Source: a virus
Direction: 5' to 3' (one strand)
IMG/VR virus record: IMGVR_UViG_3300046459_000343
Coordinates: 1-39,791 of that record
Length of the DNA stretch: 39,791 nucleotides
Shown: positions 4,601 to 34,741 of the stretch, in pieces
Layout: the number at the start of each line of letters is the position of its first letter
Numbering within the stretch: position 1 is the stretch's first letter
Notes under the pieces: generated by a model
Seen by the model: only the letters and a program-made list of their open reading frames with translations
Told to the model about the DNA's origin: nothing
Database searches by the model: none
Translations under genes and position numbers: made by a program

Positions 4601-7600
4601 ACTGCGTCAGCGCGTGGTACGCGTAGGACAAGAGATGGGCCTGCTGCGCCAGTCGCCACTGGAAGTAGCGGGCCGAGGTGCGCGACGGTGTGGTCATACT
4701 TGCCGCCGCGAGGGTGGATTTAATCGCGCCCGCCGCTTGTGTAAGGCCCTTTCCTGCGGACCGAAGCGCCATCAGTCGATGAAACTGCTCGCGGGAGCCG
4801 GGCTTGGCTGGCTTGCTGGGCTCGGCCAGTAGGTCCTGCTGCCCTTCCTTCTCCAGCGCCAGCCGGTGAAGGGTGCTGACAATGACCTCGCGCACATGGT
4901 CGAGCGTGACGGGGTCGTGGTCCGCGTCGGGGTCGGCCGGGTCCTCATCGTACCGGGCAAAGATGCCCATCGGGAATCCAGCAGGCCACTCCACGTCCTC
5001 CAGACTCTCGTGCTCGATGGCGTCGAGGACGCCCCGAATCGTCTCCGCTGATTGTTTCTTGTACGCCTTCCGCAGATCCGCGCGGGTTTTCACATCAGGG
5101 TCCGGGCGCTCGTCGGGCTGCGCGGACGACACCATCGGGACCTTCCGTTCCAGCGTCGCGGTCCCGTCCTCCGTCTCGGCCTTGCGCTGCGCGTCGGCTT
5201 CTGCATCGCGCGCCCGGCCTTCCGCTTTCAGTTCCGTTTCGATCCGGGTCATCTCCTCCTTCGCGTCGTTGAATTTTCGGACGGCGTCGGGCGGATGGTC
5301 GAGCAATGCCTTCGAGCGCGCGACGATGTCTTCAGATTCCTTGGCTTCCTTATTGAGCACGTTGGGTTGGGCGGCGAGGCTCGTGTAGTGACTCACGTAC
5401 GACGCCACGACGTTGCGGCCCTCGATGACGGCCAGTTTCGCGTCGGCAGGGACCGGTATCCGCGTGACGTATTGCACGTCCCCCGAGGCGGGGCGCGCAT
5501 CGAGAAACGTCTGAATGTCGTACCCCGCCTTTAGGGTCCCGAAGAGTTGCGCATACATCGGCAGATGCCCCAGTTCGCCAATCGTGACGCGGTCCGTCAC
5601 GTGATGCTTGCGGATCGACTCCAGGGCCTCACCGATGGCGGCGTTCGCATCGGCCTGTTTCGTGTACTTCGTCCCGTCGACGGTCATTGCGAACTGGTCG
5701 CCGTGGACGGGCACGTAATGCGCCTTGAGCCACGTTTCCATATTGGCGACTTGTGCCCGCAACGCCGTCGCGAGTTTTTCGTGCGTGACCTGATCCGCGC
5801 GCGCCTTGCCCATCGCGCGCTCGGCCGCTGCGGCCTGCGCGGCGAGACGAGTAGTGGCGGCGCGTAGCTCGGTGAGCCGCTTGCCACGCGGATCCCCTGT
5901 CGCCTGAATCTGCGCCTCCTCGATAGAGAGTTCGCTCGGATCAAACTCCTTGTACTCGGTCAGGTTGCCGCGCATGAACTGGGTGATCGCGTTGGACTTG
6001 TCGCCCAGGAGCCCATAGAGCCATTCGTCAGTCGACCCTTCCGTCACGTAGCGCGTGATGTCGATTTCCTTGTAATCGTTCCCTTGCCGAATCCCTCGCC
6101 CATCGCGTTGCCGCATGTCGCCGGGCCGCATCGCGCGCGGCGCGTCGATGTGATGGATCGCCATCAGGCGCTTCTGGATATTCATCCCCACGCCGCCCTT
6201 GTCGGTCGAGGCGAAGAGGAACCGGATCCTCCCGCTCTCTGCGGCATCAAAGAGCGCCTTGCGTTCCGCCGCATTTCGGGCCTGATGGATATAGGCGATC
6301 TCGTCGCGCCTCACGCCGCGCTTCACGAGCGCGTCGCGCAGCGCATCGTACAGATTGAAAATCCCGGTGTCGCCGAGGGGCGCTGTTTCGTCGTCCTCGG
6401 TCTCGCCCTCCTCGTCTTCAGTGCCGAGCGCGGCGCCCTCGGTGGTGTCCTCGGTCGCGGCGCCACGGAGGAACGCGAGCGGTTCGAGGGTTTTCGGCGT
6501 GCCGACGTCGAGGAACACGAGCTGCACGCCTTTGTAGGCGCGCTCCTTCTTGTAGTTCTCGGCGAGAAGATTGGCGGCGGTCTGAATGCGGGAGGTTGGG
6601 ACATCCGTCGCCGCGTCGCCCAGGACCAGACGAATATCAATCGCGGCGAGCTTGGCATCGTTCATCACGGCCAAGATGTTGTCGTTCCTCCCTGTGGGTT
6701 CCCCCGTGATGGGATGGGGCCGGTCGGGCGCGTGGTGGACCCCCTGCCGATCCGTGTAGGGCGGATTCTCGCGCAGGTTCTGGAGGCGCGTCGCAAACCA
6801 CTTCTTCACCTCGGGGTACATCGGGTGGGGTTGCGTTTTCACGATCCGCACGCGGTCGTTCACGAGTTTCGGCAGATCGAGATACGGCATATCGTCCCAG
6901 CCGACGTAGTCCATGACCTGCGCCATCGTGCGATAGAGCAGGTCGAGGTTCCGATACCGTTTTAGGCGCATGACCTCGTGGTAGGTGCCGTCGGGGCGTT
7001 GCTCGGTATTGACGCGCGCGTCGCCAAACATCGCGTACCAGTTATCGAACGCCTTGACGCCGAGCTGGTCGATGGTTTGGGGTTGGAGGTACCGCTGCAT
7101 GGTGTACAGCTCGGCGATGCTGTTCATGATCGGCGTCGCCGTCGCGAGCACGAGATTGCGATAGTTCGAGCTTTCGTTGATCTCCTGCACCTTCACGTAC
7201 ATATCGAGCGAGCGATCCGACTCAGACTTACTGAGCCCACGGAGGTTGTCGATCTTCGAGAAGAAGAAGAGATTCTTGAATGCCTGCGCCTCGTCCACCA
7301 TGAGGGCATCGACCCCGAGGTCCTCCCAGCGCAGATTGTTATCCTCGCCCTTGTTGACGGTCTTGAGTTTTTCGGCGACCTTCCGTTCGATGCGTTTTCG
7401 CTGGGCCGCGAGCTTTTTCACGCTGGCCTCGTCTTGCCCGCGCTCCTGCCGGGCATTCGCCTCAGCGTCTGACAGCTCTTTGATCCAGTTCTGCATCATC
7501 TCCGCCATGCGCTCGTCGGAGGTCTTGAGGAGCTGGAACGAAGAGTGCGGAACCAGGACGATGTCCCAGTCGCCAAACGCGATCCGCGCCATCCCCTGCT

Positions 7601-10600
7601 GGCGCTTCTTGGCCGAGAGGTCCTTGTCGTCGAACGCGAGGATTTTCGCGTCTGGGTACATCTGCTGAATCGAGGCTTTCCACTGCCCCAGGAGATAGGT
7701 CGGGACCGTAATCATCGGTTTGCGCGCCCGGCCCGTGCGACGCCACTCCATCGCGGTCGCAATCATCTCGTAGGTTTTGCCCGCGCCAACTTCATGCGCC
7801 AGGAGCGTGTTCCCGCTGGTCAGCATCCGCCAGATCGCGTTGAGCTGGTGCGGGTAGAGTTTGAACGGCAGCGCATTGCCGGGCAGCGTGAGATGGGATC
7901 CATCGAAGGTCCGTGGCACATCCCGGTTGAACCGATAGTTGTAGACCTTCATCAACTTGTCGGTCGTGGCGGGCTGCGTGTACAACCACGCGAGCCATCG
8001 CTCGCGAATGTCCTCGACGTTGGCTCGCGCGGCGGTCTGCCCTTCCACGTCCTTCACGTAGTGACGGTTGTCGCCGCGCCCCTCCCACCATCCCACGACG
8101 GGCTGATTGAGGTTCAGCGCATCGAGAAAGAGATCGGTGGCGCTGTAGATTTCCGTCGGCTTGTAATACGAACTCCCTTTCTCGCCCACGTAGTGAAACG
8201 GGACCGCGAGTCCGTGCTGCCTGCCCGCCCTGATGGCCTCGTTGCCGTACCCCACACTCCACCGGACATAGGTCTCGGTGGCGTCGAGGTGAATCGTAAA
8301 TTCGCTAGGGTCGACGCCTAACTCGTGCGCGAGATACGCCCCGACGACGGCGGTGTCGACCCAGTGCGATCCGAAACCAATCGTGACGTCGTCGAGGGTT
8401 TTCGGCGCGGGCTGCACCGCTTTCAGCGCCGCCTTATTGGACTCGAACTGCGGGCGCCCGTCGGCCTCGACGTCGGCGAGTTTCGACGTCACGTCGCCGC
8501 TGAGATATTCCTCGGCCAGCGTCCAGGACCCGTCGGGATGGTCATACACACGGCCAGACGCTTTCAGCGCCTGCTGGAGGTCCTTCGCCGGTTGCCCGCT
8601 GATGCGCGCCATGTACGGCCAATCAATCACGGTCCGCGTCCCGAGGGAGGCGAGCAACGCCTCCTCGGGCGAGTCCGCGTGGTCAATGTCCCGTACCGGA
8701 TTCAGCGTGCGTTTCTCGAAGATGTCGGCCAGCCCTTTGAACTCGTAGCTAATCCGCAGGACCGGTCCGCGCTTGGTCTCGACCAGTTTTGCCGTGGGTT
8801 TCATCACCTCCAACATGAGGAGGTTTTCTGCTTCCGGGTCGGACGTGAACAGGCGCTTATTAGTCAGGTCGTTCAGTCGACCGTACTGGCGCACGAACGC
8901 GCTGTACGCTTTGGCGAGCACGAGCTGGGCTTGCTCGACCTGCGTATTGGTCGCCTGCGGGTCCCGCATCGTTTGGATCGTGGAGCGGAGCGCGTCCCGG
9001 ATCCCGATCATGTGCTTGATGCGGTCGAACGAGTTTTTCTTGTCCGCCTTCGGCGTGACGTCGGTGACTTCTCCGCCGCGCGCGACGCGCACGATCTTGG
9101 TCCCGTCGACCCGAAGTTCGCCCGGCTTATACGGACCTTCGACGACACGGCTCGCGGGCGTCTCGGCGGCAATCTCGCTCGCAGGTTGATACGTGCCGGG
9201 CGGCAGGATCTGGGCGAGTCCCGTGCGCATGGCGTCGATCACGCCGTCGCGCGCCGCCGTGACGGTGTACTCCTTGTCGCGATACATCGACCCTTCGAGG
9301 GTTTCCGTGCCGAGCACGAGTTCGGGATGAGCGTCGTACCACGCCGAGCGATACACGTTCTGCTCGACGGTTTTTTGCTTCTTGCCGTACCCGGTGGTGT
9401 AGGTCGTGGAGAACGTCGCCGAGCGCGGCGCGTTGATGAACAGGTCGGCGTTGCGCGCGGTCTCGCCCGGCTGAAGCCGTTGCAGGATGATGAGGTCGGT
9501 GACGACCTGCGTCTTGGCGCTTTTGTCGAAGGAGGTGTTCGGAAGCCGGACCGCCCCCACAAAATGCGCGCGCTCCATCAGGTACTGGCGAAACGCGGTC
9601 GACTGGTTGTCCATCGTGTAGCGCGACGTGATAAACGCGACGAGTCCGCCCGGCCGCACATGCTCCAGCGCCTTCCCGAAGAAGTAGTTATGGATAGGCT
9701 TGCGCACCAGTTCCGGCATCAACGGGTCATCGACGCCTTCCTGCGAGAAGGGCGGGTTCCCGATAATGAGGTCCTGACTCCCGCGTGCGATCCGCGATTG
9801 CTCATAGCCTCGGACCTGGACATTCGCCGAGGGATAGAGCGCGGCAGCGATGGCGGCGGTCAGCGGTTCCAGCTCCACGCCGTTGAGGGTGGAGTTCCCG
9901 CGCACGTCGCCGGGCATGAAGCCAAACGCGTGACCGGTACCCACCGACGGCTCTAGCACGCGACCACCAGTGAATCCCGCGTTGACCAGCGCCTCCCACA
10001 TCGGCTCGAAAAGCTGGTACGTGAAGTGGGCATTGGTTGACGAGTCCGCCAAGGCGCGGCGTTCCTGTGGCGTCGTGGCGGTCTGGTAGTCGCGCCAGAG
10101 CTGGCTTTCGGTCTCTCGCCAGGAGTAGTCCTCGGTTTCCGCGAGGAAGTCGGCGACCGTGGTGTCGCCGAAGCCGACATACCGCGCGAGCACGTGTTGT
10201 TCGTCGAGGGTTGCGTGTCGCTGTTCCGCGAGGAGGATCTTGACCAGCGTGATCGCGGCGAGATTATTGCGCGCGCGGGTCATCGTCCCGCCCGCAATGA
10301 TGTCGGCGATGCGCGCGGCCGAGAGCGTGTAGTCTAGCGGCGCGGGTCCTGGGTCGTGCGTGCTTCCGGGAGTGGGTAGAGCGGGTCCGGGTTCAACTGC
10401 TCCAGCGCCTGGAGTCGGTGCATTTTGGGGTTCCGCGCCAGCGTTAAGCCGATCTGGTATTCCCGGTCCCACCACGCCTTGCGGATGGCCGTCGGTAGGG
10501 CCTGGGGGGAGCGTTGGTTGAGTTGCTGGCTGAGACGCGGGAGGAACCGTTCCCAGTACTGAAGGGCTTCCTGTTCCCCCGGCGACAGGGGCTCCTCCTT

Positions 10601-13600
10601 CACTGACGGGAAGTTGTCCGGGTCCATTTCGTTTCGTTGGTTGGCGTCCGGCATCAGTGTCTACCTTACCCTGGATGATGGGCGCTGGCGCCCCTTCCTC
10701 TTCCTCGGTGTCGACGTCGCCTTCGTCATACGGCTCCGACCCGGCAATCGACAACGGGAAATCGTGGTTCGCCATAAAGAAGGCGTACGCGAATCCCTCG
10801 GGCGTGACGGACCGTTCGAGCTGGTCCTCTTTCGTGTAGCCCGTCATCTGCTCGTGGATCTTGCTGCCCTCACCGCCGTCCTCTTTCGACCCGCCAACGC
10901 GCGCCGTCGGGAGGTGCGGATTGAACTCGCCCCAGAGCTGCGTCCGCTTCGTGTACGGGTCGCCGTACGCGTTGGGATCGAAGAAGAGCGTGTACTTCGG
11001 AAGCTGGTTCTGTTTCGCGATGCGCCCGACGGGGTTCTCCATCGCGTAGACCTTCGGGTTCGCCTGCTCGACCACCAGCTTGACGACCGCGACGAGGTGA
11101 TTGGCGTAGTCGACCGGCGTGTCGAACATCTTCGCGGCCCACTCGCCGTACGACTTCTTCACCATCGCCTCGTTCGCGCTGCCGTGGTGCGTGAGCCACG
11201 TCGCGTTACCGGAGACAGCGAAACTGGTGCAGGGCGGCGCAGCGAGGACCGCGACCACGTCATAGCCTTCGGAGATGATTTCCTCGATGTCGCCCATCCA
11301 GGATCCGAAGTCCATTAGGTCCTTGCCGTTTTCGATGTCGTACCGCATGACGTGATAGCCCGCGTCGGCATACGGTTTCGACCACTCGCCCGTGCGGTCA
11401 AACAGCGAGATGACGACCTGTCGCGAGTGGTCCTCCTCGCGCCCGATGCGCGCGGCCTCGTCCTTCCACGATTGGATGATTGGCGCCGACAGCTCGCGCC
11501 ACGACTCGGGCGTCTGTCCGGCCGCTGGGGCGATGAGTGGCGGCGCGTCATCCGTCACGAGAATCCGCACGGTGTCGGTGGGGACCGGGAACACGTCCGC
11601 CTGCGGTTTGCGGAACTCCACCATCCCGAACGCGGTGTTGAACTCCTCGGAGTCGAACGCGGCCGTCCTGGGATTGAGCGTGTCGAAGATGAGACGGCCC
11701 GCTTCGGCGGCGGACGCGAAGACTTCGTTCTCCAGCAGGTTGGCAGGGTCCGGGTCCTCCTCGCCCGTGATGCGCTGGAGCCCGGTATGCGCGGCGGCGT
11801 CGACCTCTCCCGCCCCGTCGTGTGTGGGGTTGCGAAAGAACGCGTCGACCACGTCACGTAGGGTCTTCGCGTCGGCGTGCGCCTCCGGCGTGTCCATCTC
11901 CAACAGCCGCTGGTACACCTCCATCGCCTCGCGGACGTGGCGCAGGTCGCGACTCTTGTTGCGCTGTTTGAACCAGTGGCCGAGCGTGGCTTGCGCTTCG
12001 GGGCTGAGCGCGTCTTCGAGCGCGTTGGAGTTGATCGCGTTCCGGCGCACACGCCCGGCGACGCTCTGGCGCATGTTTTCAAAAATCGTCTGTGCGTCGG
12101 CAAACGTCGGATAACTCTTCAGCGAGACCAGCTCGCCGCTGTCGTGATCCATGATCCGAATCACGCCGCGCTGCGTGGGCGAGTTATACAGTTCCGCGTG
12201 GACGCCCTCGCGGTCCTTGATGGTCTCGACGTGCGTGACAGGAATCCCCATGAGGCGCGTCGGGTGTGGTTCGGTTGGCGCCTCGGTCTGGAGCGCGGCC
12301 TCTGCTGGCGCGGCCTGTGTCGCGCGGGCGCGGCGTAGCGGGACTTGTGCCTCCGCTTTACCCTCGGCGAGCATTCGGGCGAAGTCCTGGACGGTCGCCT
12401 CTGGCTTTTCCTGCTCGCGAAGGTATTGCGCGTAGCCGTCGCGCACGTCGGCGAACGGCGGCGGTTGGAGCTTGATCAGTTTAAAGAAGCCCGCCAGCCC
12501 GTTGTACGCCGCTTCGGTATAGCGGGCGGCGAACTCGTCTCCACGATCCGCTGGCGTAGCGACGGGCGCGGGCGTCGGCACGGCCTCGGCGGGCTTTTGA
12601 ACAGCGGCCGTCTCGCCGGGTGAAGGCGCGGTGCCCTCACGCTCGGTCGGTGTCGAGAGGTCGATCTCTCCGCCCAGCACGCCGCTTCGTCCGAGCGGCT
12701 CGCCCTTCCTTCGCACACGGATGGGTCGCTCGTCCCCGCTGCCCTCCATGAACTCCTGGAGGCGTGTCAGTTGCTCCGTGGTAAGGTCGCCGTCGACGAC
12801 CGCGTCAACAAAGTGACCGCCATCGCCTACCTTCGAGTCGCGGAGGCGCATGTTGCCGGACGTGAGGAAGCCCTCGCCTTCGACGATGGTGCGTGGGCGC
12901 GTCACCATCGTTACCGGCACGCCCTCAAACTCTCCCTTCCATGTGTACTCGTCGGCCGGGAACGTCTTCGCACCACCGCCCACTTTGCGCTGCCCGACAA
13001 TCGTGAACGCGTCGGTGAATTTGGGCGCCGCTGGCGCCTCGGTGCCGGGCGGTTGGGACGGTATCGGGGCCGTTTCAGGGGCTGATGCTGTCTCAGGTGT
13101 CGGCGCGGCGGCGGGCGGCTGCGCGTTCCAGAGGATGTTCGGAATCGGGACTTCGCCTTCGGGCTGGTCCTTGACCGCTTCCTTGACGGCGGTTTTCACC
13201 TGCTGCCCGAGCGCGCGCGCGCCAGCCTCATCCGTGCCGGTGTGGCGCATGACGAAGTCGAGGTAGTCCGCGTCGCGCTTCGACGGCGTCTTCTGCGCCA
13301 GAATCAGCGCGGCCTTATCGAGGTCGCTTTCAAAGACCGGCGTGTACTGCGTCGATCCGATATTGAAACGCGGCGCCGCACCAGCCAACCCCTGCGGGAG
13401 CGTGGGCGGGACGCGAATCGTCGGAACCGTGCCGGTCTCGTCGACGCCGAGCTGGAAGGCCGGTTTGAACGGCGGAGTGACCGGTATATCGACCGTGGGG
13501 GTGACGGGTGCCGGTGTGCCCAGGGTCTCGTCGAGGATGCGCGTGACGGGGTTCTGGACGGCCGGAGGTGGTGTCGGCGTCTCCGGCGTCGCCGTGCCTT

Positions 13601-14645
13601 GCTCGAACTGCTCCCGCATGTCCGCTTGCGTGCGGACTTGCTCGCGCACCCAGTCCGCCACCGGGGTGCTGCTGATGAGTTCGCCAGCCGTCTCGCCGAC
13701 GGCCGGTTGGTTGATCTCCTCCGAGAACGTCTGCGGCGTGCGTCCGAAGGTCGTGGAGAGTCCGGCGCCTTGTTGCACCTGTCCACGAATCGCGGCGACG
13801 TCGAGCGTGCCGCGCAGGACACCGGCTCGTGCGGTTGACTGCACCGCTTCGGCGGTTTTCCCGGCGACGTCGGCCAGCCCGTCGTAGACCCGCTTCACGC
13901 CCAGCGTCGCTACAGCGGTCCCGGTAAGATTGCGGTAGAAGCGTTGTGTCGCGGGGTCCGCGCCCGCATACTGCGCCGCTTGCTCAGCGGCGGAGCCCGC
14001 GAGCCAAGCCGCGCCGATGGCGGCGGCGGTCACCGGGAAGTCGACGATGGCGCCGGTAATCGCGAGCGGCGTCGCCATCTTCGCGACGCCTTCCATCATG
14101 TCTGACGCGGCATTGAGCGCGGCGGCATTGTCTCCAGGTCGTGGGGGCTGGAGTAGATGTGGTTCGGTGGGGAGGACGCGCGGATGCGAGACCGACTCGA
14201 CGGCGCCATGTGCGAATTGGCCGACGCCTTCCGGGATGACATCGAGAAACCCTTGTCCTCGTGGGGGCTGGATCGCGGCGCCGCCCGTCTTGGCGCTGCC
14301 GAGGCGTCCGGGTTGTTCGACGTACGGTTGCGGTTTCGGCAGGACGTAGGTCGGCGACTGCGTGGTTTGCGTCGGCTGCGACTGCCAGATCGTTTCGAGT
14401 TCTTCTGGTGAGAACTGCCCGCTGGCTTTGGCGGCGACGTACGTGGACGGGCCGCTCGACACCGTCGAGGGCGGCTCCTCGTCCTCCAGCGGCTCGACAC
14501 TCACGATGCCCAGCGGCTTGAGCTTGCCTGACTCGCGTGACGCGGGCAGTGGACTGAAGCCGCCGTACTGCGTGTACGTGTTCGGGTCTTTCGGTTCGTC
14601 CTCCAGCGGCTCAACGCTGACGATGGCGAGCGCCTTCTGCGCCAT
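1680..14645 (-). CDS. Giant 4321-residue polyvalent protein: two methyltransferase-like domains, SNF2 helicase, zincin motif
   Basis: One open frame covers a third of the window. Residues 7-17 and 46-56 carry twin IVSVEPLEDE motifs, and about 188-225 is hydrophobic. About 1075-1250 is cytosine-methyltransferase-like (LFDRTGEWSKP, APPCTSF near 1136, ENPVG near 1202, YTKRT near 1230). About 1260-1435 is a Pro/Gly/Ala linker. About 1440-1760 is adenine-methyltransferase-like (LEPSVGTG near 1563, NPPF at 1630). About 2260-2900 is an SNF2-type helicase (HEVGAGKT near 2283, DEAQ near 2452, ATATP near 2501, RQRDGRGIRQGN near 2847). Coiled-coil-like segments follow. HEVGH at 3585-3589 is an HExxH zincin motif, and hydrophobic stretches lie near 3930 and 4035. 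This resembles DarB-type and other polyvalent antirestriction proteins injected with phage DNA. Its start overlaps the previous gene's stop (TAATG). Virion packaging is inferred from context. Confidence 0.85.
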   Translation of the reverse strand: MAQKALAIVSVEPLEDEPKDPNTYTQYGGFSPLPASRESGKLKPLGIVSVEPLEDEEPPSTVSSGPSTYVAAKASGQFSPEELETIWQSQPTQTTQSPTYVLPKPQPYVEQPGRLGSAKTGGAAIQPPRGQGFLDVIPEGVGQFAHGAVESVSHPRVLPTEPHLLQPPRPGDNAAALNAASDMMEGVAKMATPLAITGAIVDFPVTAAAIGAAWLAGSAAEQAAQYAGADPATQRFYRNLTGTAVATLGVKRVYDGLADVAGKTAEAVQSTARAGVLRGTLDVAAIRGQVQQGAGLSTTFGRTPQTFSEEINQPAVGETAGELISSTPVADWVREQVRTQADMREQFEQGTATPETPTPPPAVQNPVTRILDETLGTPAPVTPTVDIPVTPPFKPAFQLGVDETGTVPTIRVPPTLPQGLAGAAPRFNIGSTQYTPVFESDLDKAALILAQKTPSKRDADYLDFVMRHTGTDEAGARALGQQVKTAVKEAVKDQPEGEVPIPNILWNAQPPAAAPTPETASAPETAPIPSQPPGTEAPAAPKFTDAFTIVGQRKVGGGAKTFPADEYTWKGEFEGVPVTMVTRPRTIVEGEGFLTSGNMRLRDSKVGDGGHFVDAVVDGDLTTEQLTRLQEFMEGSGDERPIRVRRKGEPLGRSGVLGGEIDLSTPTEREGTAPSPGETAAVQKPAEAVPTPAPVATPADRGDEFAARYTEAAYNGLAGFFKLIKLQPPPFADVRDGYAQYLREQEKPEATVQDFARMLAEGKAEAQVPLRRARATQAAPAEAALQTEAPTEPHPTRLMGIPVTHVETIKDREGVHAELYNSPTQRGVIRIMDHDSGELVSLKSYPTFADAQTIFENMRQSVAGRVRRNAINSNALEDALSPEAQATLGHWFKQRNKSRDLRHVREAMEVYQRLLEMDTPEAHADAKTLRDVVDAFFRNPTHDGAGEVDAAAHTGLQRITGEEDPDPANLLENEVFASAAEAGRLIFDTLNPRTAAFDSEEFNTAFGMVEFRKPQADVFPVPTDTVRILVTDDAPPLIAPAAGQTPESWRELSAPIIQSWKDEAARIGREEDHSRQVVISLFDRTGEWSKPYADAGYHVMRYDIENGKDLMDFGSWMGDIEEIISEGYDVVAVLAAPPCTSFAVSGNATWLTHHGSANEAMVKKSYGEWAAKMFDTPVDYANHLVAVVKLVVEQANPKVYAMENPVGRIAKQNQLPKYTLFFDPNAYGDPYTKRTQLWGEFNPHLPTARVGGSKEDGGEGSKIHEQMTGYTKEDQLERSVTPEGFAYAFFMANHDFPLSIAGSEPYDEGDVDTEEEEGAPAPIIQGKVDTDAGRQPTKRNGPGQLPVSEGGAPVAGGTGSPSVLGTVPPASQPATQPTLPPGPTDGHPQGVVGPGIPDRLNAGAEPQNAPTPGAGAVEPGPALPTPGSTHDPGPAPLDYTLSAARIADIIAGGTMTRARNNLAAITLVKILLAEQRHATLDEQHVLARYVGFGDTTVADFLAETEDYSWRETESQLWRDYQTATTPQERRALADSSTNAHFTYQLFEPMWEALVNAGFTGGRVLEPSVGTGHAFGFMPGDVRGNSTLNGVELEPLTAAIAAALYPSANVQVRGYEQSRIARGSQDLIIGNPPFSQEGVDDPLMPELVRKPIHNYFFGKALEHVRPGGLVAFITSRYTMDNQSTAFRQYLMERAHFVGAVRLPNTSFDKSAKTQVVTDLIILQRLQPGETARNADLFINAPRSATFSTTYTTGYGKKQKTVEQNVYRSAWYDAHPELVLGTETLEGSMYRDKEYTVTAARDGVIDAMRTGLAQILPPGTYQPASEIAAETPASRVVEGPYKPGELRVDGTKIVRVARGGEVTDVTPKADKKNSFDRIKHMIGIRDALRSTIQTMRDPQATNTQVEQAQLVLAKAYSAFVRQYGRLNDLTNKRLFTSDPEAENLLMLEVMKPTAKLVETKRGPVLRISYEFKGLADIFEKRTLNPVRDIDHADSPEEALLASLGTRTVIDWPYMARISGQPAKDLQQALKASGRVYDHPDGSWTLAEEYLSGDVTSKLADVEADGRPQFESNKAALKAVQPAPKTLDDVTIGFGSHWVDTAVVGAYLAHELGVDPSEFTIHLDATETYVRWSVGYGNEAIRAGRQHGLAVPFHYVGEKGSSYYKPTEIYSATDLFLDALNLNQPVVGWWEGRGDNRHYVKDVEGQTAARANVEDIRERWLAWLYTQPATTDKLMKVYNYRFNRDVPRTFDGSHLTLPGNALPFKLYPHQLNAIWRMLTSGNTLLAHEVGAGKTYEMIATAMEWRRTGRARKPMITVPTYLLGQWKASIQQMYPDAKILAFDDKDLSAKKRQQGMARIAFGDWDIVLVPHSSFQLLKTSDERMAEMMQNWIKELSDAEANARQERGQDEASVKKLAAQRKRIERKVAEKLKTVNKGEDNNLRWEDLGVDALMVDEAQAFKNLFFFSKIDNLRGLSKSESDRSLDMYVKVQEINESSNYRNLVLATATPIMNSIAELYTMQRYLQPQTIDQLGVKAFDNWYAMFGDARVNTEQRPDGTYHEVMRLKRYRNLDLLYRTMAQVMDYVGWDDMPYLDLPKLVNDRVRIVKTQPHPMYPEVKKWFATRLQNLRENPPYTDRQGVHHAPDRPHPITGEPTGRNDNILAVMNDAKLAAIDIRLVLGDAATDVPTSRIQTAANLLAENYKKERAYKGVQLVFLDVGTPKTLEPLAFLRGAATEDTTEGAALGTEDEEGETEDDETAPLGDTGIFNLYDALRDALVKRGVRRDEIAYIHQARNAAERKALFDAAESGRIRFLFASTDKGGVGMNIQKRLMAIHHIDAPRAMRPGDMRQRDGRGIRQGNDYKEIDITRYVTEGSTDEWLYGLLGDKSNAITQFMRGNLTEYKEFDPSELSIEEAQIQATGDPRGKRLTELRAATTRLAAQAAAAERAMGKARADQVTHEKLATALRAQVANMETWLKAHYVPVHGDQFAMTVDGTKYTKQADANAAIGEALESIRKHHVTDRVTIGELGHLPMYAQLFGTLKAGYDIQTFLDARPASGDVQYVTRIPVPADAKLAVIEGRNVVASYVSHYTSLAAQPNVLNKEAKESEDIVARSKALLDHPPDAVRKFNDAKEEMTRIETELKAEGRARDAEADAQRKAETEDGTATLERKVPMVSSAQPDERPDPDVKTRADLRKAYKKQSAETIRGVLDAIEHESLEDVEWPAGFPMGIFARYDEDPADPDADHDPVTLDHVREVIVSTLHRLALEKEGQQDLLAEPSKPAKPGSREQFHRLMALRSAGKGLTQAAGAIKSTLAAASMTTPSRTSARYFQWRLAQQAHLLSYAYHALTQYRNAVERMTLDHGQILDIADALQDPTGTGKRVPAELKPWETIRTEIFDHLKQQLKDLGIERDWKDYYLGQAWENEYKPDSVLGQARRPLGGPGSFMRRKKIPTMREGVEVYGKTPITWNLVEMDLHKIAEMAKFVLARQTLEDNKQLGTFVWGSSLRKRPDGMMEIPDIIGKVFAPPELTVHEAYDKGLMEGLESFITQLGVNYTRKATAGTRWGVSGSKSGDIKAKFGGPVEVLMHEVGHTIDTLFDLRTQLLQVVPDAEQELINLAQLRFAGYPNTDPAFRAYVEEPSEQIANLVFGYLYSPVATQQAAPQTYAAFEHLIDSNPQLQMLPDLQQMRTHVFAERTTTQALAGPIYLGQYYAPPEVATVFRRYLEPGLGAHKAWALVRVPSNIMVQAKLSFSAFHGFTVNLASAGMEAARGLNDLARGRPVSAVKRIGRAVIEPAAVIHRGVQHKREYRSTLDTESLAWDAATNLFIAGGGRMEQSRDYTNRAMNKFMDNLRRANEAYIRGLPKQVATESFVAALRLIPAVVEATAWPVLGWLVPVAKAGAMVSQIRQGIDELPGVPTQATLLAIARKASDLTDATLGEVIWDNRALPRVFLNVLQFMIMSPGWRGGSLIILGRGLTDPIRRLVPSQRETYTVLKPPTAPPPPPGGGPAPPLPKQTPRTSAPTVDVKEKYWSNWTSLAIGITLIQVLAAELYQLAHGAGHVGSIADVALPRTGEVNKVTGEPERIKLPGYSAIFYAILHHLPRSLVDYILGGGSPLPTAIGDIYHNSDYGVAIVDEGDPWRVQMRDYAAFMADQLKPISVSSYGRRSGSAVEKAESLVGISPASHRDTMSDAELLMSDYLGPPHLSKEQAERADEKRSIREAKREGTAAPETPHLSPKEAASARKTAFRLPLVAGFPRLSWAQAAHVYEEATPEERGVIRQQLINKSNTERARVPADDKPAFYARKDALLALPFTSRKIASGQ
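10334..10654 (-). CDS. Candidate nested gene, 106 residues, out of frame inside the giant gene
   Basis: This ATG-initiated ORF lies on the same strand as the giant gene in another frame. Unlike other alternative-frame ORFs here, which are Arg/Ser/Pro-rich shadows, it has a balanced protein-like composition with acidic, aromatic and amphipathic stretches: QEALQYWERFLPRLSQQL, then AIRKAWWDREYQIGLTLARN and a Pro-containing tail. A TAAGG lies about nine bases before the ATG. In the giant frame the same DNA encodes only the low-complexity linker between the two methyltransferase domains, about residues 1330-1437. It could be a true overprinted gene, or a former in-frame domain displaced by frameshifts. 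I do not recognise its function. Confidence 0.45.
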   Translation of the reverse strand: MPDANQRNEMDPDNFPSVKEEPLSPGEQEALQYWERFLPRLSQQLNQRSPQALPTAIRKAWWDREYQIGLTLARNPKMHRLQALEQLNPDPLYPLPEARTTQDPRR

Positions 14646-29255: not shown

Positions 29256-29450
29256 TTATGCAGGGTCTGACGCCTCCCGTACGAGCTTCGTGACGTCACC
29301 TCGGCGGACGCGTAAGCTCGGCCGCTCGCCGACTTCCACGTGCGGCACGACACCTTTGCGCAGCCATGTGTGGAACGTGTTGTAGTCGACGCCGCACAAG
29401 GCGGCGGCTTGTTTTAGTGTCATCAGCTCCGACTCAGGTTCACGCAACAC
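29256..29450 (-). CDS. Small MerR/excisionase-type helix-turn-helix protein
   Basis: The 64 residues read as a winged HTH of the helix_turn_helix_17/excisionase type: MTLKQAAALCGVDYNTFHTW forms the HTH (residues 10-29), LRKGVVPHVEVGERPSLRV follows as the wing, and a RRGDVTKLVREA helix closes it. Such proteins bind DNA and act as transcription regulators or excisionases. The GTG start is strongly supported by GGAGGTGACCG directly upstream and overlaps the portal gene end by 11 bases. An internal ATG at codon 10 is the alternative. A DNA-binding regulator inside the head operon is unusual, and a triple 9-bp repeat follows its stop. Confidence 0.75.
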   Translation of the reverse strand: MLREPESELMTLKQAAALCGVDYNTFHTWLRKGVVPHVEVGERPSLRVRRGDVTKLVREASDPA

Positions 29451-31962
29451 CGGTCACCTCCCCGTCGTGTGTGCCTTCGGTGGCGAGCTGTTCTTCTTTG
29501 GCTTCGGTCGCCTTGTCGGCCGACGCAGCCTTGATGCGCGCGACCTCAATGGTCGTGGCGTGGTCCATCTCGGCAAGGAGCAGCTCACGATCCTGCTGGG
29601 CCTGCGCGTCGGCGGCTTGTAGCGTGAGGTCCTGCGCGTGTTCGCGCGTCGTCGCGACGCGGTCGTTCTGCTTATCGCCGGTCGTCTTGAGGTGTTCGAG
29701 TTCGGCCTCCAGCAACGTCACCGCGCGTTCGGCTTTCAGTTCGAGCTGGCGCTCGATATAGTTCGCGCGCTGCTTCATCCGCTGGAGATTTTCCTGTGAG
29801 GCGAGCGTCGCCGCGTTGATCTTCTCGCGCGACTGCGCCTCGACCTGTGTCTCCTGCTGCTTGCCCTGGACCTCCTCGTGCTTCATCTTCATCATCGCGT
29901 CGTACTTCGGCTGCTCGGTGTCGATCTGCTGCTTCAGATGTTTCGCGACGTCGGTGAGCTGCTTCACCTGTCCTTTGAGTTGGTTCAGTTCGGCCTGTGC
30001 CTGTGGCGGGATGCGCTCGTCCTGATTCTCGGTTTGCAGCTCGGGCGGGAGCATCATCTTGGCGCGGTCCGCCATCTCCTGCCCCATCGGGAAGTCCATC
30101 ATCTCGAAGTACAGGTCGAGGAACTTCACCGTAATCTCGGGCGGGAGTCGCTCGAAGAGCGCCGACATCGCTTCCACCGCTTCTTGGCGTTTCGTGCCGG
30201 AGGTCGGTCCCGCACTCACTTCGATGTCGAACTCCCCGAGCGAGAGATCGTAGATTTCCTGCACACCATCGGGCAGGTTGAAGGGCACGGGTTTGCCGTC
30301 GGGACCGTTGGGCCGGTATTGCGGCAAGCGGGGATCGTTGCGCGCCCCCGAGAACACCATCACCTTGCGCGCCTGATCTTTTTTGCCGTTGATGCGAAGA
30401 ATGGTAGGGACGTCGTAGGTCGAGCGAATCAGGTCGACGAGTTGTCGGCCCACCGCGCAGAGCGCGAAGCGGAGGTTATCGAGATAGTGCGAGCTGCCTA
30501 GCTCATCTTGCTTCTGCCGCGCGAGAATCGCTTTGCCCGATTCCTGTGGCCCACGTTCACCGAGCGAGGCGTCCTGAAACCCGGCCGTGCTCTTGTAGTC
30601 CTGGTCGGTTTGTCGAATCGCGACGACGATGCCTTCGATGGGTTGCTCGAACGACATCGGCTCGGGCCGTGGCGCCGGTTTCCCGTCGATGTCCATCGGC
30701 TCGATTTCGAGGAACGCGTGCATCTTCGTGCTGGCCGACTCCCACGCGCGACGCATGGCGGAATCAGGCGGGCCGAATTGGCCGCGTAGCCCGACGACGG
30801 GCCGCTTCTGCCCGACACCGACAGACTCGGTCAACGCCGAGATTTGCACGTTGTAAATCTGGCCCGAGGACTTCGAGTCGCGCACGACGCCGCGATAGTC
30901 CAGCTCGCCGTCGATCATCAGCTCGTCGCCAATGACCGGAATCCACGGCGGCGCCTTGCTATCCCAGGTCGTCTCCTCGTGAATCGTCACCGCGTCGCAC
31001 TTGCGCCAGACGATGACCTTCTTCTGGACCCAGCGGTCCATCTTGACGGTGATGCCCAGCTTTTCGAGTTCCTTCTGCTGCTTCTCGTCGGGGTAGGTGA
31101 TCTCTTTGCCGGTGGAGAGCAGGGCGAGATGCTTCTTGTCGCCGCGCGGTTCTCTGGAGAAATACTCGACCCATCGCACCTTGCCGTTCGGGAACCAATC
31201 GCCGGTCATGTCGCCTTCGCCACTCAGCGCATCGAGGGACCCTTCCGGGGGCGGTTCCTTGCCGGTGATGTCCTCGAACGCGTCCCGGTCCAGGTCGGTC
31301 ACCTTCATCTGCCAGTCGGCATCGGAGGCGTCCATCTCCTGCGCGGCCGGGTCGGAGTAGATCGCGAGCGGGTTCTTCTCGCGCTTGATCTTGAGCCGTT
31401 GCTTGAAGCCCTGGTCCGGGTCGGACCACTCTTTCAGGATGCGGATGTAGCCGCGTCCCTGCTCCGCCTGCTTGTCGCTCGCCATCGCGTAGGCGCGGTC
31501 GGCAAAGCTGTTGACTTCGACGTTGCGGATGATGCCCTGAAGCACTTCGGCGACCTTCGGGTCCGACTGGTCGTCGACCGGATTGACCGTGATCGCGAGA
31601 TGCGCGGCGCGCGCAGCGTTGGTGACTTGGCGAATGAAGGCAGGCATCCGATTGACGGTGAGACACGGGCGCCCGGCATCTTTGCGCGCCTGTTGAATCC
31701 CGGCAGGCCACTGATACGAGGTGTCGCCCCACGTGCCCGAGCGAAACTTCGCATCATCAATCGCCTCGGCGCGGTAGTGCTCCTCGGCGTCGAGACACTG
31801 CCGGAGGCGTTTGCGCATCAGCGCGAGGACCTCGGCGTCCTTGTTCGGCTTACTCTTTTTCCGGGGGTCGTCGGTCCCGTCGTCGGTTTCGATGGTGCCG
31901 TCGGCGCGCTCCGTGGTCACGTCGGGGGCCTTGACGGTCGAGGGATCGTCGATGGTACTCAT
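29440..31962 (-). CDS. Portal protein, P22-like
   Basis: The 840-residue protein shows the P22 portal type: LRQCLDAEEHYRAEAIDDAK, GRPCLTVNRMPAFIRQVTN, then FADRAYAMASDKQAEQGRGY, with AIYSDPAAQEMDASDADW downstream. P22 portal is 725 residues, and here a long helical, Gln-rich C-terminus (about 640-800: LNQLKGQVKQLTDVAKHLKQ, YIERQLELKAERAVTLLEAE) corresponds to the barrel region. It forms the dodecameric DNA channel and docks the terminase. The chosen ATG at 31960-31962 overlaps the terminase nuclease stop by four bases (ATGA). A longer in-frame version from 32052 would overlap the nuclease gene and lacks support. Confidence 0.9.
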   Translation of the reverse strand: MSTIDDPSTVKAPDVTTERADGTIETDDGTDDPRKKSKPNKDAEVLALMRKRLRQCLDAEEHYRAEAIDDAKFRSGTWGDTSYQWPAGIQQARKDAGRPCLTVNRMPAFIRQVTNAARAAHLAITVNPVDDQSDPKVAEVLQGIIRNVEVNSFADRAYAMASDKQAEQGRGYIRILKEWSDPDQGFKQRLKIKREKNPLAIYSDPAAQEMDASDADWQMKVTDLDRDAFEDITGKEPPPEGSLDALSGEGDMTGDWFPNGKVRWVEYFSREPRGDKKHLALLSTGKEITYPDEKQQKELEKLGITVKMDRWVQKKVIVWRKCDAVTIHEETTWDSKAPPWIPVIGDELMIDGELDYRGVVRDSKSSGQIYNVQISALTESVGVGQKRPVVGLRGQFGPPDSAMRRAWESASTKMHAFLEIEPMDIDGKPAPRPEPMSFEQPIEGIVVAIRQTDQDYKSTAGFQDASLGERGPQESGKAILARQKQDELGSSHYLDNLRFALCAVGRQLVDLIRSTYDVPTILRINGKKDQARKVMVFSGARNDPRLPQYRPNGPDGKPVPFNLPDGVQEIYDLSLGEFDIEVSAGPTSGTKRQEAVEAMSALFERLPPEITVKFLDLYFEMMDFPMGQEMADRAKMMLPPELQTENQDERIPPQAQAELNQLKGQVKQLTDVAKHLKQQIDTEQPKYDAMMKMKHEEVQGKQQETQVEAQSREKINAATLASQENLQRMKQRANYIERQLELKAERAVTLLEAELEHLKTTGDKQNDRVATTREHAQDLTLQAADAQAQQDRELLLAEMDHATTIEVARIKAASADKATEAKEEQLATEGTHDGEVTGVA

Positions 31963-32735
31963 CGGTTCATCCACCCATAGCTCTCCGATGCGGTCCCGGC
32001 GAAGCGCGCGAGCGGGTCTTCCAGGACGGGAATCGGTTTCGCTTGGAGCCACGCGTCACCCGACGCGAGGCAGTAGCGCCCGGCGTCCATCGCATGGTCG
32101 TTCTTCTTGATGACTTGGCCTTTTTCATTGCGGCGGTAGAGACGACGTTCGGCAATCCAGTTCGGGCAGCGGTGTTTCATCACCTTCAACGTGCCCTGGC
32201 TGAGCGCCATCAACGTGTCGTAGATGCCGGTCTCCACCGCGTTGGCGGCGAGCCCGAGATGCCGCTGGCCCACGAGGTCATCGCCGTAGATCGCTTCGCG
32301 ATAGAGCTTCAGGAGCTTCTTGCCGTCGCTCTGCCCGCGTCCGCGTGCGGCCGGGTCGATGCGACCGGGAATCCAGTTCCCCCGTCGACGAATCGCCGCG
32401 CCGTGCACCGTCGGATCCGCCTCGCCCCGGTAGTACTCGTCGTAGAGATAGGACACGCGCGTGTCGGGATTGATCGCGCGCCAGATGACCGCCGTGCGGT
32501 TCCAGCCCACGTCCAACCCATAGCCACGCGGCCAGTGATCAGGAATCGAAAACGGATCGCACTCGATGTCATCGTCGGGGATGGGATAGATGACGCCCGC
32601 GCCGAGCTGGGGAATGCCGCGTGTGCGGGCGTCGATCTGGTAGGCGGGAATCGACGCCTTTAGCTCCGCCTTCGCATCTTCCGTGAGATGCGGGGCGTTG
32701 TTATCCCAATCGGCCGTGATGATGAATCGGCTCAT
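31959..32735 (-). CDS. terL: Large terminase, nuclease half
   Basis: The 258 residues align with the C-terminal RNase H-like nuclease domain of phage large terminases. It starts at the ATPase-nuclease junction (ADWDNNAPHLTEDAKAEL), then ARTRGIPQLGAGVIYPIP. Acidic residues expected to bind metal are D75 (YGLDVGW), D127 (IDPAARG), and D213/D217 (KNDHAMDAGRY). It cuts concatemeric DNA at the start and end of packaging. There is no ATPase domain in this ORF; that half is a separate gene at 33768-34616. It overlaps the previous gene and the portal gene by ATGA. The motifs look intact, so the split protein may work as two chains. Confidence 0.85.
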   Translation of the reverse strand: MSRFIITADWDNNAPHLTEDAKAELKASIPAYQIDARTRGIPQLGAGVIYPIPDDDIECDPFSIPDHWPRGYGLDVGWNRTAVIWRAINPDTRVSYLYDEYYRGEADPTVHGAAIRRRGNWIPGRIDPAARGRGQSDGKKLLKLYREAIYGDDLVGQRHLGLAANAVETGIYDTLMALSQGTLKVMKHRCPNWIAERRLYRRNEKGQVIKKNDHAMDAGRYCLASGDAWLQAKPIPVLEDPLARFAGTASESYGWMNR

Positions 32736-33142
32736 AACGTCAACTGTCGCGAGCGGTCATAGCTGCGTCGCCACCGTTCGTCGTCGCGGCCGGTGCGGTC
32801 CCACGTCGCCCCATCCCCGCGCCTGCCGCCGCGTGACCAGCCCACGAGGAGTCGCGTGACGCCGGACACCCCGTACGGCCGCGCGAGCCGCTTGTCGGTC
32901 TCTGGGTCGAAGCGCGTGCGACGGCGCACGCGACGCGGCGCCGCCACGACCGGCGCGGCGACCACAGGAGGCGCCGCCACAGGGGAGGGCGGCGGCGGAC
33001 GCTGACGGAGGGTCGCCCCCTCCACCACGACCTCCACTAGCTGCTGTCGGTACGGCTCCGGTTCCCATCCCGGCGCCTTGATGCCGTACAACGTCCAGGC
33101 TTTCCCCGGACTCATCCCCGCAATGGTGTCGAGGTAGTGCAT
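32732..33142 (-). CDS. 136-aa protein inserted between the terminase halves
   Basis: The N-terminus (DTIAGMSPGKAWTLYGIKAP, then GWEPEPYRQQLVEVVVEG) looks folded. A PPPPSPVAAPPVVAAPVVAA linker follows, then a very Arg-rich C-terminus (RRVRRRTRFDPETDKRLARP and WSRGGRRGDGATWDRTGRDD). The basic tail suggests nucleic-acid or protein docking. No GIY-YIG, HNH or LAGLIDADG motif is present, so it is not a homing endonuclease. It starts one base after the 25-aa ORF and overlaps the nuclease start by ATGA. It might tether the two terminase halves, but that is speculation. Confidence 0.6.
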   Translation of the reverse strand: MHYLDTIAGMSPGKAWTLYGIKAPGWEPEPYRQQLVEVVVEGATLRQRPPPPSPVAAPPVVAAPVVAAPRRVRRRTRFDPETDKRLARPYGVSGVTRLLVGWSRGGRRGDGATWDRTGRDDERWRRSYDRSRQLTL

Positions 33143-33143
33143 C

Positions 33144-33221
33144 TCAACAAGCCCGATAGACCGCGATGATCACCAGAACGACGACGAGGTCCCCGAGGAG
33201 GACCACCGCGAGCCACCGCAC
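33144..33221 (-). CDS. 25-aa single-pass membrane microprotein (GTG start)
   Basis: Reading GTG at 33219-33221 gives MRWLAVVLLGDLVVVLVIIA plus VYRAC. It is a single hydrophobic helix with a basic N-terminus. It begins immediately after the stop of the 33-aa ORF and ends one base before the next start, filling what would otherwise be the only gap in this block. Exact tiling and strong hydrophobicity support it, but the non-ATG start and short length leave doubt. Function is unknown. Confidence 0.45.
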   Translation of the reverse strand: MRWLAVVLLGDLVVVLVIIAVYRAC

Positions 33222-33323
33222 TCAGTAGCCCTTGCCGTAGCCGCCGCCCGTCTTGCTGATCTTGATGGCGCCCGCGCCGTGGTTGTGCTTGCCCGGCTTC
33301 GCAACGACAACGGTTTTCTTCAT
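33222..33323 (-). CDS. 33-aa basic, glycine-rich microprotein
   Basis: The ORF encodes MKKTVVVAKPGKHNHGAGAI then KISKTGGGYGKGY. It is rich in Lys, Gly, His and aromatic residues with no acidic residue, so it could bind nucleic acid or an acidic surface. It overlaps the upstream stop by four bases (ATGA), and AGAGA lies before the ATG. It is one of five small ORFs between the terminase halves. I do not recognise it. Confidence 0.55.
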   Translation of the reverse strand: MKKTVVVAKPGKHNHGAGAIKISKTGGGYGKGY

Positions 33324-33580
33324 GGCTGTTCTCTCTGATAAAGGGTTTGCATCGTGGTGACGTAGCGGTCGAGGTACTCGTACATCCAGCGAATTTCCTG
33401 GTCGGTGAAGCGATAGTCGGCCTCGCTCTTAAAAAACCGTCGCGCCGCGACGCGAAACTTGTGATACCCCTCGATCCGCACGAGGCGATAGAGCCGCGCC
33501 GGATCGAGCACCGCTCGCAACGCGCCCGCCGCCTCCTTCACGAAATACGCGCGCGGGAGCTTCTGTAGCTCGGGGTCCAT
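33320..33580 (-). CDS. 86-aa basic helical protein between terminase halves
   Basis: The protein reads as mostly helix with many Arg and Tyr residues: LRAVLDPARLYRLVRIEGYH, RVAARRFFKSEADYRFTDQE, then a WMYEYLDRYVTTMQTLYQ helix. It shares one base with the previous stop (TAATG) and overlaps the next start by ATGA. I do not recognise the family. It has no nuclease or ATPase motif. Its conserved-looking aromatic helix could be an interaction surface. Confidence 0.6.
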   Translation of the reverse strand: MDPELQKLPRAYFVKEAAGALRAVLDPARLYRLVRIEGYHKFRVAARRFFKSEADYRFTDQEIRWMYEYLDRYVTTMQTLYQREQP

Positions 33581-33765
33581 TACAGGTCCTCGTCGAGCGC
33601 CTGAAACTCGGCGACCCACTCCAGGGGAAACTTGAACGTGTCGTGCGACGCGACGACGGCGACCATCCGGCCGTCGCAGGTAATCGCCTCGACATCGTGA
33701 AAGCGGTCCACATCCCGTGACGGACGCGAGAACGACGTCCAGCGCCAGTGAATCAAGACATCCAT
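33580..33765 (-). CDS. 61-aa small protein directly after the terminase ATPase half
   Basis: The sequence starts MDVLIHWRWTSFSRPSRDVD and continues VEAITCDGRMVAVVASHDTF, a pattern of short beta strands, ending in an acidic AEFQALDEDL helix. The start lies two bases after the ATPase stop and its own stop overlaps the next ATG (TAATG). I do not recognise it. Confidence 0.55.
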   Translation of the reverse strand: MDVLIHWRWTSFSRPSRDVDRFHDVEAITCDGRMVAVVASHDTFKFPLEWVAEFQALDEDL

Positions 33766-33767
33766 CG

Positions 33768-34616
33768 TTAGTGGTCTCCTCGCGGCACGTCGTCGGTGTC
33801 CTCCGGCGAAACGCCAAACATCCCTTCCTTCCCGTTGATGAGCGTGCCGTCGGCCATGCACATCAACGAGGTTTCGAGGTAGTGATCGATGAAGGGCGTG
33901 AGCCCCCGCAGCGGCGTGAGCGTCGTCATCAGCAGGCCGTTGGTCGTGGCCGTGCGCAGCAAACACTCGGTGTAGATGTCGCCTGCGCCCGACGGCACGC
34001 CACCGCCCGTGGGTTGCTCACTCGCGTCGGGCGGTTCTTCGTCGAGCCACACCCCGCCCGTCAACGACGTGCCTTGAAAACTCTCGCGGCCCTGGTCGTA
34101 GCTCTTGAACTGAATGGTGGAGGTGGTCGGTGCGCCGTGTCGGCGTTCACTGTGCCGAATCCAGACGGTGTCCAGACAATCAGCCACGCCGTTTTTCATC
34201 GTGCGGTCGACGATGAGGTGCGCCGGAATCATCCCGGAGTACGTCCCATGTCTGATCGCTTCCCGCGCGCCGAAGAGTTCCCACTGTAAAATGTCGCGCG
34301 TGGTTTCGCGCGTATCACCCGCCACCCACCAGCCTGTGGCTTTCGGAAAGCGTCGGCCTTCCCACCACGCGGGATAGTCGCCGGTCACGTGCGCCGTCAG
34401 CTCGTAGGCGGCGCTCACCGTTTTGCCGGTGCGGTTCGCGGCGAGGAACAATCGCTCGCGATTCGTTTTCCCCTCGCGCCAGAAAATCAGCGAGCGCGGA
34501 TACAGCTCGCGCCGCAGCGGTCCCTCGTCAGGAAAGTACGCGCGGAACGGACACGCGCGCCGACGGGCGAGTTCCTCTTCGAGCCGGAGAATCGTGTCGC
34601 GTTGCTCCGAGGTCAT
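33768..34616 (-). CDS. terL: Large terminase, ATPase half
   Basis: The 282 residues hold the packaging motor ATPase: adenine-binding region, Walker A ANRTGKT at 60-66, Walker B VWLDEE at 189-194 with the catalytic Glu, and coupling motif TTLTP at 231-235 followed by LRGLTPFIDHYL. This is the Terminase_6 type. The frame stops soon after (GVSPEDTDDVPRGDH) without a nuclease domain. The nuclease is a separate gene about 1 kb downstream. Intact terminases of this group run about 450-500 residues, close to the sum of the two halves. The start overlaps the 42-aa zinc-ribbon gene by ATGA. Confidence 0.85.
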   Translation of the reverse strand: MTSEQRDTILRLEEELARRRACPFRAYFPDEGPLRRELYPRSLIFWREGKTNRERLFLAANRTGKTVSAAYELTAHVTGDYPAWWEGRRFPKATGWWVAGDTRETTRDILQWELFGAREAIRHGTYSGMIPAHLIVDRTMKNGVADCLDTVWIRHSERRHGAPTTSTIQFKSYDQGRESFQGTSLTGGVWLDEEPPDASEQPTGGGVPSGAGDIYTECLLRTATTNGLLMTTLTPLRGLTPFIDHYLETSLMCMADGTLINGKEGMFGVSPEDTDDVPRGDH

Positions 34617-34741
34617 GCGGGCCTCGGCGGGACCGGCGTGACAATCCAGAGCTTCCCGCAGGTGTTACAGAAGCCCTGACGTCCGAGCACGTCGATCTGT
34701 TTGGTTTCGCCGCAGTGCGGGCAGGAGACGAGCGGACTCAT
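34613..34741 (-). CDS. 42-aa zinc-ribbon microprotein
   Basis: The ORF encodes MSPLVSCPHCGETKQIDVLG then RQGFCNTCGKLW. Two CxxC knuckles at residues 7-10 and 25-28 are the four ligands of one zinc ribbon. A Pro-rich tail follows. It overlaps the stop of the 59-aa gene and the start of the terminase ATPase gene by four bases each, so it is translationally coupled to packaging. A role in binding DNA or protein is plausible. Confidence 0.65.
   Translation of the reverse strand: MSPLVSCPHCGETKQIDVLGRQGFCNTCGKLWIVTPVPPRPA

Follow-up and report, generated by a model that had tools for sequence, protein, structure and literature searches.

The large terminase (TerL) of this phage is very probably a natural gene in pieces, whose two products would assemble in trans into a two-chain packaging motor. 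In the window, which is the whole 39,791-nucleotide stretch of DNA that was analysed, an ATPase half and a nuclease half are encoded by two ORFs that sum to one ancestral gene, each with its own start and stop codon. P22-like (Terminase_6) TerL carries both domains on one polypeptide, whereas here they occupy separate ORFs with five genes between them. The preliminary description had proposed that packaging uses two separate chains, and this proposal gains support from the motifs kept in both halves, purifying selection, separate genes at 81 of 208 related loci, and the lack of a match to any intron family.

Two terminase genes and a five-gene cassette

The features of the locus, in the order of transcription, are as follows.

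33768–34616, minus strand: TerL chain 1 (282 aa), the ATPase (ASCE) core with Walker A/B and the coupling motif
33580–33765, minus strand: o61 (61 aa), coding by codon test with its own frame best
33320–33580, minus strand: o86 (86 aa), a predicted helical protein, supported by codon test and by homologs in contigs L002 and L083
33222–33323, minus strand: o33 (33 aa), Gly/Lys-rich, supported by codon test
33144–33221, minus strand: o25 (25 aa), GTG start, a single hydrophobic helix, from direct reading and codon test
32732–33142, minus strand: o136 (136 aa), Pro/Ala- and Arg-rich, supported by codon test
31959–32735, minus strand: TerL chain 2 (258 aa), the end of the ATPase domain (~41 residues, including the lid), the linker and the RNase H-like nuclease
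29440–31962, minus strand: P22-like portal protein (P22_portal, E 4.9e-119), immediately downstream of the nuclease half

Read directly from the sequence, the ATPase half contains ANRTGKT, VWLDEE and TTLTP, and the nuclease half YGLDVGW, IDPAARG and NDHAMDA. Pfam Terminase_6N matched the ATPase half (E 2.6e-8), and Terminase_6C scored just under its cut-off on the nuclease half (E 1.5e-4; 22.2 bits versus 22.6). On the PHROG profile phrog_2, the ATPase half occupied columns 269-412 and the nuclease half columns 422-590; these columns abut, so together the halves represent one terminase without loss. Four acidic residues of the nuclease half (D75, D127, D213 and D217) were invariant across 33 relatives, and its AF2 model matched the nuclease of P22 gp2 (4dkw) in Foldseek at E 1.1e-13. 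The neighbourhood of the split gene is likewise P22-like, with portal, scaffold and coat. Within this record, a linear fragment that covers part of the phage genome, no second TerL was found.

Codon usage scored the own frame best as coding for all five cassette ORFs (5/5). Their junctions are, in order, a 2-nt gap, TAATG, ATGA, an abutting TGA/GTG, a 1-nt gap, and an ATGA in which the o136 stop overlaps the start of the nuclease half. No Pfam or PHROG match was obtained for o61, and o136 had no match in the phage collection. Pfam and PHROG detected no homing endonuclease gene in the window junction, and Rfam intron families, searched across 31.5-35.0 kb down to E 10, returned weak, irrelevant matches only.

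Much of the preliminary description was reproduced by these analyses. The coordinates, frames and motifs of both halves agreed by direct reading, Pfam and PHROG; the complementary phrog_2 columns, with nothing missing, match its statement that the halves make up one intact terminase. Its account of five small ORFs tiling the interval almost gap-free is matched by both the junction list and the codon test. The lack of a homing endonuclease motif in the cassette was also found with Pfam and PHROG, and that of an intron core fits the Rfam result and an interval filled by coding ORFs.

The window also contains similar small genes upstream of TerL. A 42-aa zinc-ribbon-like ORF (34613-34741, minus strand) lies directly upstream of the ATPase half; it had weak Pfam matches only and the weakest codon score among the ORFs tested. 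Elsewhere, one third of the record (1680-14645, minus strand) encodes a 4321-aa protein that combines SNF2-helicase and Eco57I-methylase domains.

Position of the cut and its recurrence

A profile built from ten intact relatives matched the D6E terminase (5OE8) and the P22 gp2 nuclease (4DKW). In the D6E mapping, a sequence alignment at E ~1e-6, the first residue after the cut aligns with D6E chain position 194. The D6E lid residues M216 and R224 precede a linker at 230-241 (Xu et al., PMC5727402); assuming a D6E chain offset of 3, they would be chain positions 219 and 227. By this alignment, residues 2-41 of the window nuclease half correspond to the end of the ATPase domain, residues 42-53 to the linker, and the remainder to the nuclease. 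The P22 gp2 nuclease construct aligns about 41 positions past the cut, in agreement with the D6E mapping. These alignments show the cut to lie inside the predicted ATPase domain, in one variable loop, and not at the ATPase-nuclease linker. The preliminary description had the nuclease half start with the normal inter-domain linker, a view that has to be given up, as the D6E counterpart of its first ~41 residues is the end of the ATPase domain, including the lid residues. AlphaFold modelled residues 51-200 of the nuclease half mostly above pLDDT 85-90; the averages of 51 to 80 over the first 50 residues are what a segment missing its partner should show. The cut loop of intact relatives, measured from motif III to a conserved Trp, is 23 to 64 residues long.

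We propose that TerL was ancestrally a single chain and was then cut in this variable loop, which runs from the motif III helix (TTLTPLRG...) to the conserved segment closing the ATPase domain. Most likely the cut would have arisen when an endonuclease inserted into this tolerant loop or when a stop/start mutation occurred there. The products would be an ATPase core chain and a second chain that joins the last part of the ATPase domain (lid) to the linker and the nuclease. A working motor would require the halves to associate non-covalently, since part of the ATPase domain resides on the second chain, whose lid segment would complete that domain in trans.

Searches of IMG/VR, GTDB genomes and phage records yielded 208 loci at which both halves are present; a two-sequence profile of the nuclease half reached no new relative, and a 33-sequence profile did. 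This comparison of split and intact relatives, which had been suggested at the outset, revealed separate ORFs at 81 loci (57/155 viral records and 24/53 bacterial genomes), cut at the same place; as the searches were first seeded with split sequences, these fractions do not represent population frequencies. Two independent IMG/VR contigs have the same split, with halves 69% (ATPase) and 76% identical in L002 (insert of 0.76 kb) and 61% and 63% identical in L083 (insert of 3.3 kb); the split is therefore not an assembly error. Insert content differs among the window, L002 and L083. The complete circular phage MW202785 was deposited with two ‘large terminase’ genes, and split TerL genes are present in isolate genomes or prophages of cultured Alphaproteobacteria, including Sphingomonas melonis, Sphingopyxis flava, Aminobacter aganoensis and Azospirillum cavernae. 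Comparison of the window with L002 and L083 gave dN/dS of about 0.25-0.35 for both halves, and by this measure both TerL halves are under purifying selection in the window clade. Given the same cut in dozens of related phages, the textbook single-chain TerL is probably not essential.

A start codon exactly at nuclease residue 1 was found in 20/28 zero-gap splits, 33/52 gapped splits and 1/112 intact genes. This enrichment indicates that the zero-gap cases, as a class, are not sequencing frameshifts, though the 8/28 that lack a clear start codon may include errors. When the joined halves were placed on a maximum-likelihood tree of 121 rows, built without the junction columns, the split/intact state changed 18 times (18-20 in a bootstrap that had not settled), with at least 8 changes forced by well-supported branches, each count covering fission and re-fusion alike. 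An earlier 60-row tree gave 11 changes, 4 of them forced, and a 143-row quick tree gave 18 and 6. One supported clade of 18 rows, mostly alphaproteobacterial where the host is known, is entirely split, which indicates that the split state can be stable.

Junction cargo and a possible coupler

What lies between the halves varies from clade to clade: in many relatives the gene is cut without an insert, the halves overlapping by ATGA, and in others 0.1-5 kb of unrelated genes separate them. A homing-type endonuclease is the only junction gene at L138 (HNH and AP2), L153 (T5orf172), L154 (EndoVII) and L166 (HNH/EndoVII), and these junctions adjoin zero-gap splits on the tree. Other junction cargo includes a resolvase, KTSC, Cpn10 (a GroES-like chaperonin) and TatA. 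Zero-gap or short-gap splits also stand beside cargo-bearing ones: L158 (gap of 0) with L153 (445 bp), L089 (3) with L154 (999) and L125 (1074), and L040 (28) with L048 (381). This proximity on the tree implies that cut and cargo are separable. The cassette had been put forward as what split TerL; that role is contradicted by relatives that are cut at the same place without an insert and by cassettes that differ completely between relatives. The window cassette is cargo, and nothing suggests that its insertion caused the split. The junction would be a tolerated landing site with a turnover of homing-type endonucleases and unrelated small genes, with cargo exchanged after the cut and the five genes of the window representing one such load. 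Very large loads, of 3.3 and 5.3 kb, were noted at L091 and L199 (13 and 18 ORFs by greedy tiling), whose nearest tree relatives are intact.

TatA-like genes lie between the TerL halves at L083:5116-5292 (TatA_B_E, 4.8e-22) and L023:6496-6708 (2.1e-15; both Pfam), and are adjoined by genes for proteins with twin-arginine signals (L083:3993-4376 and L023:6905-7570); a similar signal is encoded at L042:6776-7372. This arrangement suggests that these phages may bring their own Tat substrates together with TatA. Such pairs at L083 and L023, along with KTSC, Cpn10 and further domains among the junction genes, would also fit a junction that is not neutral and serves as a regulated site for useful accessory genes, such as TatA-like and Tat-signal proteins, a GroES-like chaperonin, and structural proteins. 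We think this unlikely, in view of junction content that differs between almost all clades and of the similar small genes found upstream of TerL in the window.

Two junction families are constant within a clade: o86 is shared by the window, L002 and L083, and the L016-L072 group has a family of 66-72 aa. The homologs of o86, its clade’s sole common cassette gene, are at L002:4669-4932 (Z 12.1) and L083:5587-5994 (Z 9.0), each with 0/3000 shuffles scoring as high. The AF2 model of o86 is all helix (pLDDT 85), and the predicted fold had no significant match in the PDB; o86 had no match in the phage collection or in IMG/VR searches. A small, weakly o86-like family was seen downstream of the nuclease half at L090:1972-2244 and in L093, L102, L117, L094, L088 and L086. 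Compared with this family, which belongs to a neighbouring split group, o86 gave an hmmsearch E of 0.1 and, in a single hhalign comparison, an E of 0.0035 at a probability of 9%.

Retention of o86 in all three junctions while the remaining cargo differs, the presence of the 66-72-aa family at every locus of its own group, and the well-folded helical protein predicted for o86 raise the question of a dedicated coupler: o86, or elsewhere the unrelated 66-72-aa protein, would bind both chains and hold the motor together. Many splits, however, have no junction gene at all. The rapid evolution of o86 (dN of about 0.9, versus 0.2-0.4 for the TerL halves) and the weakly similar proteins outside the junction in the neighbouring group lead us to regard such a bridge as doubtful. 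Equally speculative is a fuller scenario of repeated evolution to obligate two-chain motors, in which the lid of the nuclease chain would complete the ATPase domain in trans and a clade-specific junction coupler of the o86 type would regulate assembly in some clades.

Introns, inteins and other divided phage genes

The halves could in principle be exons, joined into one protein through an unrecognised intron or other RNA-level joining, as reported for terL of phage ICP1, and terL is a known intron target (PMC10448857). We consider this very improbable: there was no Rfam intron match, five coding ORFs occupy the insert, the zero-gap ATGA splits leave no space for an intron, and both halves have a stop and a start of their own, the start being enriched only in split relatives. 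An intron at the cut was rejected on the Rfam result and the zero-gap splits. An intein or split intein at the cut was rejected as well, since neither half had a Pfam intein match and the half ends (...VPRGDH* and MSRFII...) lack intein splicing motifs. Inteins do occur elsewhere, in the nuclease half of some split relatives, where they interrupt the NDH active-site motif: L016:5950-7632 (Intein_splicing, Pfam 1.5e-11) and L034:5578-7275 (5.9e-6, under the curated cut-off); those of L017, L035 and L037 were judged from equally long ORFs alone. A frameshift or assembly error is countered by the start-codon enrichment and the isolate genomes. Least probable of all is a decayed, non-functional terminase or chimeric assembly, for although the window is known from a single fragment, the arrangement repeats in independent contigs, isolate genomes and a circular phage, and both halves keep their motifs under purifying selection.

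The split TerL can be set beside several known counterparts. The large terminases of P22, Sf6 and D6E (P22 gp2, 4DKW; D6E, 5OE8) share the domains, motifs and P22-like portal and coat context, but are single chains, whereas here there are two chains cut within the ATPase domain. As cited in PMC3653736 and PMC10448857, nrdA (ribonucleotide reductase) of phage Aeh1 is split by a homing endonuclease and its pieces are functional. It resembles TerL in being an essential phage gene in two coding sequences, with homing-type endonucleases in the junctions of several TerL relatives. It differs in the gene concerned, in the roughly 18 changes of TerL cut state on one tree, and in that most TerL junctions have no endonuclease or other cargo only. 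N4-like phages have a two-subunit RNA polymerase, RNAP1/RNAP2, with zero to eight spacer genes (PMC5418858), likewise a single ancestral protein now encoded by two genes that varying numbers of unrelated ones separate; that case concerns a polymerase rather than a packaging motor, and one phage group. The TerL coding sequence of ICP1 is also interrupted, but by an intron, and the RNA is spliced to give one protein (PMC10448857), whereas here no intron is present, the halves have start and stop codons of their own, and the gap is often zero. Cyanophage Mic1 TerL has two inteins (PMC7156551), insertions paralleled by the nuclease-half inteins of L016 and L034; those of Mic1 are spliced out as protein, unlike the cut described here, which lacks intein ends.

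We found no paper on TerL as two separate chains in the open-licence literature searched. Gene fission itself is already known; what is unusual is that it affects a motor ATPase, which it divides within the catalytic domain, and that the cut recurs. Some phage annotation schemes name terminase ATPase and nuclease proteins separately, so annotators have probably met split TerL genes before. For annotation pipelines, the relatives described here mean that ‘half terminases’ are not to be equated with decayed genes. The junction represents one defined site at which an essential phage gene tolerates both fission and gene traffic. Terminase has been presented as a single chain whose two domains are tethered, and models of force generation are built on a lid that moves in cis. 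Naturally occurring motors with a divided ATPase domain would make it possible to ask whether the tether and a cis-acting lid are needed.
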